From positions 1 to 64,000 of IMG/VR virus record IMGVR_UViG_3300032236_000643: a stretch of DNA of 64,000 bases, one strand, 5' to 3'. The position numbers and the translations under genes are program-made. Below the pieces are notes generated by a model. It was not told the DNA's origin. It saw nothing but the letters and a program-made list of their open reading frames with translations, and ran no database searches. Position 1 is the stretch's first letter. Each line of letters starts with the position of its first letter. The stretch comes from a virus. Of this stretch, positions 44,298 through 44,437 are shown piece by piece.

Positions 44298-44333
44298 AAA
44301 ACCCCAGCAGCCAGGGGGAGCTGCTGGGGTTTT
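44298..44333 (-). terminator. Intrinsic terminator in the transglycosylase leader
   Basis: AAAACCCCAGCAGC (44298-44311) pairs perfectly with GCTGCTGGGGTTTT (44320-44333). On the minus strand TTTTCCCTTTT follows. It lies between a folded leader and the start codon at 44267, the place of an expression-platform terminator. Confidence 0.8.
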
Positions 44334-44342
44334 ACCCACACA

Positions 44343-44425
44343 CGCCGAAAGGGCGGCGACAAGTAATACGCAACTCACCCCTGTTAACGCTTAGGGAACC
44401 GGGGCTATCGGTATTCACATGTCGC
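44343..44425 (-). ncRNA. Structured 5' leader, riboswitch-like, family not assigned
   Basis: In the mRNA, GCGACAUGUGAAUAC (44425-44411) pairs with GUAUUACUUGUCGC (44369-44356), 13 pairs with one mismatch and one bulge. They enclose ~40 nt rich in conserved-looking motifs (CGAUAGCCCCGG, CCCUAAGCGUUAACAGGGG, GGGGUGAGUUGCG). A small GC hairpin follows (CGCCCUUUCGGCG). An extended -10 promoter lies directly upstream and a terminator directly downstream. Known: c-di-AMP riboswitches control Rpf-type genes in actinobacteria, and GGGGUGA also occurs in them, but I cannot match the full consensus. Confidence 0.6.
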
Positions 44426-44428
44426 TTA

Positions 44429-44437
44429 ATTGTATCA
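44429..44437 (-). promoter_or_regulatory. Extended -10 promoter for the structured leader
   Basis: Minus-strand TGATACAAT combines TGn with TACAAT. No good -35 is seen. The predicted start (about 44422) coincides with the 5' arm of the leader stem. It overlaps the region just beyond the upstream gene's stop at 44448. Confidence 0.55.

Follow-up and report, generated by a model that had tools for sequence, protein, structure and literature searches.

A candidate folding-based transcription attenuator upstream of an Rpf-like cell-wall hydrolase gene in a phage

Transcription attenuators built from alternative 1:2, 2:3 and 3:4 helices have been surveyed (PMC2965389). In actinobacteria, c-di-AMP riboswitches of the ydaO type precede wall-hydrolase genes and terminate transcription of Streptomyces rpfA (PMC10117811, PMC9960051); the two actinobacterial c-di-AMP riboswitches discussed in PMC9960051 are without a canonical terminator. 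In phages, riboswitches are described as rare (PMC9004378). The leader described here lies on the minus strand of a window of 64,000 nucleotides, the whole stretch of DNA that was analysed, which is part of an IMG/VR virus record of 70,410 bases. Among the genes of the window are those of a tyrosine integrase (PF00589), a DNA polymerase and a major head protein, and numerous relatives of the latter are found in viral contigs. The nearest relatives of the hydrolase encoded behind the leader are found in actinobacterial, apparently freshwater, MAGs, and an actinobacterial host is therefore likely.

All elements of the promoter-to-gene unit are on the minus strand. The extended -10 promoter element named in the original prediction is confirmed as TGATACAAT at 44437-44429. 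It follows the pattern TGnTAnnnT, which occurs 13 times per 64 kb on this strand, and no -35 element is recognisable upstream of it. From the usual -10 spacing, the most likely predicted +1 is A44422 (range 44423-44420). The element starts straight after the stop codon of the upstream gene (44855-44448, DUF6378 by domain match), whose transcripts would enter the leader. The 5' fold, a long imperfect hairpin closed by the P1 stem GCGACA/TGTCGC (region 1:2, 44425-44356), is followed by a small GCCG-CGGC hairpin predicted by folding (44355-44343) and by an intrinsic terminator (region 3:4, 44333-44298). The terminator, predicted at 14 bp, has 14-15 bp; it consists of AAAACCCCAGCAGC...GCTGCTGGGGTTTT plus CCCTTTT, is followed by CCCTTTTCT and reaches a z of -6.5 when folded alone. 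Further downstream are a Shine-Dalgarno-like AAGGA (44277-44273) and the gene of a 140-aa Rpf/transglycosylase-like cell-wall hydrolase (44267-43845) with its ATG at 44267. A promoter was not found in the 31 nt that separate the terminator from the ATG, and hydrolase expression should therefore need read-through. An intrinsic terminator thus stands between promoter and gene, as in a transcription attenuator.

The dimensions of the unit differ from those first proposed. Ribosome-binding site and ATG are present, but the ATG lies 31 nt past the interval of 140 bases (44298-44437) that was said to hold the whole unit, which therefore measures about 170 bases. The closing stem is also present, but it spans 70 nt rather than about 40. 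It does not start at the predicted transcription start; its first base precedes the likely +1 by 3 nt.

The feature that carries the attenuator reading is an antiterminator that was absent from the original prediction. Its 5' arm CAGGGG(U)GAGUUGC (region 2, 44383-44370) pairs with the 3' arm GCAGCUCCCCCUG (region 3, 44324-44312) in a 13-bp helix with a single bulged U. Region 3 is the inner 5' arm plus the loop of the terminator, and region 2 is paired within the 5' fold as well, so that the three helices make up a 1:2, 2:3, 3:4 attenuator scheme. Neither the 5' fold nor the terminator can coexist with the antiterminator, as in the logic of classic attenuators. The arms of the GCCG-CGGC hairpin also fall inside the antiterminator hairpin, in its inner part. 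The duplex has an energy of -25.6 kcal/mol, compared to a mean of -11.8 (sd 2.7) for shuffled leaders (z -5.2), and a single shuffle in 20,000 is as stable. Real phage sequence gives a less extreme p of about 0.002-0.02: the same energy is reached by 7 of 3,182 real 80-nt stretches of the phage (about 0.2%), and the antiterminator ranks second among 97 terminator-like hairpins in the window, the only one above it sitting within the tape-measure gene. An antiterminator that excludes the terminator is therefore present beyond chance expectation. No comparable pairing is found at four other terminators, at the 41.8-kb module or in two related phage leaders. With the 3' arm of the terminator removed, 44422-44311 folds as the antiterminator (z -3.3, 0.2% of shuffles). 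In a growing chain, the minimum-energy structure passes from the 5' fold to the antiterminator, with the change at 44315-44306, and from there to the terminator, at both 37 °C and 15 °C.

The 5' fold, either an anti-antiterminator or a putative sensor domain, is less conspicuous by itself. Taken as a whole, the 140-nt region is more stably folded than expected by chance (z -4.86), mainly because of the terminator. The leader minus terminator is unremarkable, with z -1.7 from 44425 and -0.4 from 44422, and folding alone therefore lends little support to an aptamer. The best local domain in the leader has p 0.10 versus shuffles and 0.04 versus the phage's own 92-nt windows; overall, the 5' fold on its own is not significant (p about 0.04-0.3), and the z of -3.6 for the 70-nt hairpin cut exactly to its ends is obtained with ends picked after the fact. 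With P1 starting 3 nt before the predicted +1, a local transcript from A44422 would be short of most of the G-C base of the stem and would be without the three G-C base pairs of P1.

These missing pairs lead to a possible trigger. With region 2 held in the 5' fold, region 3 would be free and the terminator would form; with region 2 paired to region 3, the antiterminator would allow polymerase to read into the Rpf-like gene. Forced-state energies depend on where the RNA starts. With a start at 44422-44420, the RNA prefers the antiterminator by 7-13 kcal/mol just after region 3 emerges, and at full length the two states nearly tie. For RNA from 44440 or 44470, as in transcripts of the upstream genes, the terminator state is ahead by 10-14 kcal/mol, and for most start sites the antiterminator state of the full-length RNA is no more stable than the terminator state. 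Local-promoter transcripts would thus favour the antiterminator, by 7-10 kcal/mol while region 3 emerges, because their 5' fold lacks its three basal G-C pairs, and would tend toward read-through, while transcripts from the upstream operon would carry the full stem and favour the terminator. From this start-site-dependent balance of equilibrium energies, and with the +1 as predicted, we infer termination of upstream-started and read-through of local transcripts. The hydrolase would be insulated from early transcription and still be expressible via its own promoter. Any ligand or protein stabilising the 5' fold would push in the same direction, to off. We give the leader a probability of about 0.5 of being a working folding-based transcription attenuator; helices and their competition are computed, and cellular use and trigger are what we infer from them. 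Of the possible triggers we favour the RNA's own 5' end, as a tentative and in itself rather improbable proposal.

The gene behind the leader is, as originally predicted, probably that of a cell-wall hydrolase. The N-terminus of its 140-aa product is signal-peptide-like as judged by eye. C56, H60, E61 and W90 are invariant in 12 relatives, with E61 as the predicted catalytic Glu within a C-x3-HES motif. The match to PF06737 is sub-threshold (16.2 of 27 bits). The predicted structure has a mean pLDDT of 73, and its best solved fold matches are the Rpf catalytic domains of RpfB (Z 5.3) and RpfE (Z 4.9), followed by chitinases and a lytic transglycosylase; Foldseek with the predicted model returns only E values above 1. 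Sequence and predicted fold together make an Rpf/lytic-transglycosylase-like wall hydrolase likely.

The association of Rpf-type genes with c-di-AMP riboswitches, on which the original prediction drew, is real. RF00379 lies immediately upstream of all three of the enzyme's nearest cellular relatives (46-55% identity), at 60-72 bits. This argues for a diverged or vestigial ydaO riboswitch that was inherited along with the gene, as does the retention of GGGGUGA and CCC..CAGCUC.CC in order. The shared GGGGUGA was noted from the start, and CAGCUC is present as well. These letters are, however, also needed for the antiterminator pairing and are therefore not independent evidence of ancestry. The Rfam scan against RF00379 (gathering score 38 bits), proposed as a check of the original prediction, gives no match even at E 10, be it over 181 nt, over 501 nt or over the whole virus record. 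A custom model R1 of the 3' half of the riboswitch, based on 18 sequences of the same order, gives the leader 7.4 bits versus 52-69 bits for true members; the leader is the best match of a 501-nt region (E 0.033), with an E of 2.9 over 44 kb. Where the 3' half reads GGGGYGAA ... CCGNCAGCUNAC, the leader carries GGGGUGAG and CCCAGCAGCUCCCC. The GAA, CCGNCAGCU and CAGCUNAC that are invariant in the 18 related riboswitches are missing from the leader, and the 5' element GGGGGAACC with its closing helix is absent from the leader sequence. Rfam and the custom model both reject the leader as a c-di-AMP riboswitch, so that the divergent member first envisaged is disfavoured and a vestige of one is very improbable. 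Blastn with the riboswitch of one of the three cellular relatives (L111) finds no c-di-AMP-like leader in named phages.

Among the remaining explanations, a less likely one is an ordinary terminator that ends the early operon or a short noncoding RNA; the hydrolase would be expressed through leaky read-through, and the antiterminator pairing would be fortuitous. This phage commonly has terminators a short distance upstream of genes, so that the arrangement is not unique to the hydrolase gene, and others of them lack any antiterminator. The non-significant 5' fold, the roughly 0.2% of phage stretches that pair equally well with the GC-rich arm and the tape-measure hairpin that outscores the antiterminator are all in line with such a terminator. 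Against it, the complementarity is rare by three nulls, and the pairing is placed between promoter and regulated gene, where it overlaps both competing helices. A constitutive promoter with a short terminated RNA, from which a promoter-loaded phage protein passes the terminator into a lysis-type gene as at lambda pR'-tR', is unlikely: a cis antiterminator pairing would be superfluous, and no antiterminator protein has been noticed in the phage by non-systematic inspection. The succession of promoter, RNA of about 125 nt, strong terminator and wall hydrolase without its own promoter would fit this scheme, AlpA governs lysis genes in the same layout (PMC7969949), and the related phages G004, L128 and L129 have a different promoter-RNA-terminator module before the lysin.

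A ligand riboswitch of an undescribed class, in which a metabolite would lock the 5' fold (44422-44356) and cause termination, would explain the order aptamer-antiterminator-terminator and would agree with the riboswitch control of the enzyme gene's cellular relatives. We consider it improbable, given a putative aptamer that shows no excess stability, a P1 base outside the predicted transcript, the lack of any Rfam class at gathering score and the lack of homologs in our searches. Beyond the architecture, the ligand-binding part of the original prediction is unsupported, while its attenuator architecture stands and is strengthened by the mutually exclusive antiterminator. Attenuation by a leader peptide would use a 28-codon open frame, GTG44418-TAA44332, which crosses the regulatory region and ends at the first bases of the terminator. 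It is probably untranslated: the frame is without a Shine-Dalgarno sequence or a run of regulatory codons, its codon score is -0.19 per codon versus +0.09 to +0.15 in neighbouring genes, and a frame of this length is expected by chance in about 1 of 4 cases. Leader-peptide control is therefore highly unlikely, and we retain the folding-based attenuator as the preferred reading.

Homologs of the leader were sought by blastn in phages, 37 viral relatives and all loci collected for comparison, in viral contigs with a 14-base pattern, and in the relatives and 162 actinobacterial genomes with a single-sequence covariance model (R2). None of these searches gave a homologous leader, be it in 35 genomes and records, those actinobacterial genomes, the phage collection or the sampled viral contigs, which weighs against the attenuator. 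The pattern scan gave three loci with a 95% match over 22 nt (L237, L184 and L277); the one in L237 falls within a large ORF and was rejected as a homologous leader. A leader motif shared with the promoter-RNA-terminator module at 41.9 kb was discarded, as the antiterminator is absent there. The leaders of related phage lysins (L085, L128) are a different RNA with no significant antiterminator, and a match to ncS01 there is coincidental.

Further elements were observed in the window and in related phages. A second module at 41914-41755 on the minus strand consists of a promoter (TTGACA-18-TATACT), a short RNA, a terminator and a gene; a frame of 23 codons (GTG41860-TAA41789) within this RNA has a Shine-Dalgarno sequence and a good codon score, and the module has no antiterminator. 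Three terminator-like hairpins follow each other ahead of one gene at 40494-40240 (minus strand). The repeat GCCCGTAACCACAC occurs on the minus strand at six sites (41396-41416, 41726-41746, 46230-46250, 53649-53669, 54658-54678 and 56350-56370) where 0.1 are expected by chance, several of them just before gene starts; we take it to be reminiscent of mycobacteriophage start-associated sequences. Upstream of their lysin relative, the related phages L085 (2250-2036, minus strand), L128 and L129 have another structured RNA, about 200 nt long and equipped with a terminator of its own (fold z -5.1), with no Rfam family at gathering score. Two phages related through the major head protein carry a tmRNA-like 83-nt element (L097:6678-6760, plus strand; L101:6942-7024, minus strand). 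It comprises the tRNA-like domain only (RF00023, 61-62 bits), is not permuted, has no tag reading frame and is not called by ARAGORN. Identity between the two copies is 91%, and one stem shows a consistent G-U to G-C change. It would be unusual to find an mRNA-less tmRNA mimic. Between a tRNA and this element, L097:6200-6540 (plus strand) is an unannotated stretch, possibly a noncoding RNA, with a terminator-like hairpin at its end.

Taken as a folding-based attenuator, the leader is plausibly a new individual element of a known kind. We doubt that it is a riboswitch or start-site-sensing attenuator specific to the phage, outside all described classes, which replaced the bacterial c-di-AMP riboswitch of the same hydrolase. 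If this were true, the virus would control a cell-wall enzyme of host type by an RNA switch of its own. Gating of an Rpf-like enzyme by the folding of a phage leader RNA would tie viral wall-hydrolase use to a decision made at the time of transcription. One enzyme family would then have a c-di-AMP riboswitch as its regulator in freshwater actinobacteria and an unrelated RNA switch in a phage.

Compared to known systems, the leader shares with the c-di-AMP (ydaO/yuaA) riboswitches, which control Rpf-type wall hydrolases in actinobacteria, the position before a gene of this type, the termination logic and the GGGGUGA and CAGCUC fragments, but it differs in being shorter, besides lacking the RF00379 match and the 5' element. 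The best sub-threshold Rfam match is the Pseudomonas rnk leader (RF01772), itself a transcription attenuator. Its 24.9 bits are far under the gathering score of 55, the match is mostly terminator, and gene and host are unrelated, so that the leader is not a member of this family. With classic attenuators it has in common a promoter, a leader of mutually exclusive 5' fold, antiterminator and terminator, and then the gene; it differs from them as a single example, located in a phage, with no known sensor and a 5' fold that is not significant alone. The lambda pR'-tR' and Pseudomonas alpB units have the same promoter, short RNA, intrinsic terminator and lysis-type genes, but use a Q/AlpA-type protein, whereas the phage leader has a predicted cis antiterminator helix (PMC7969949).
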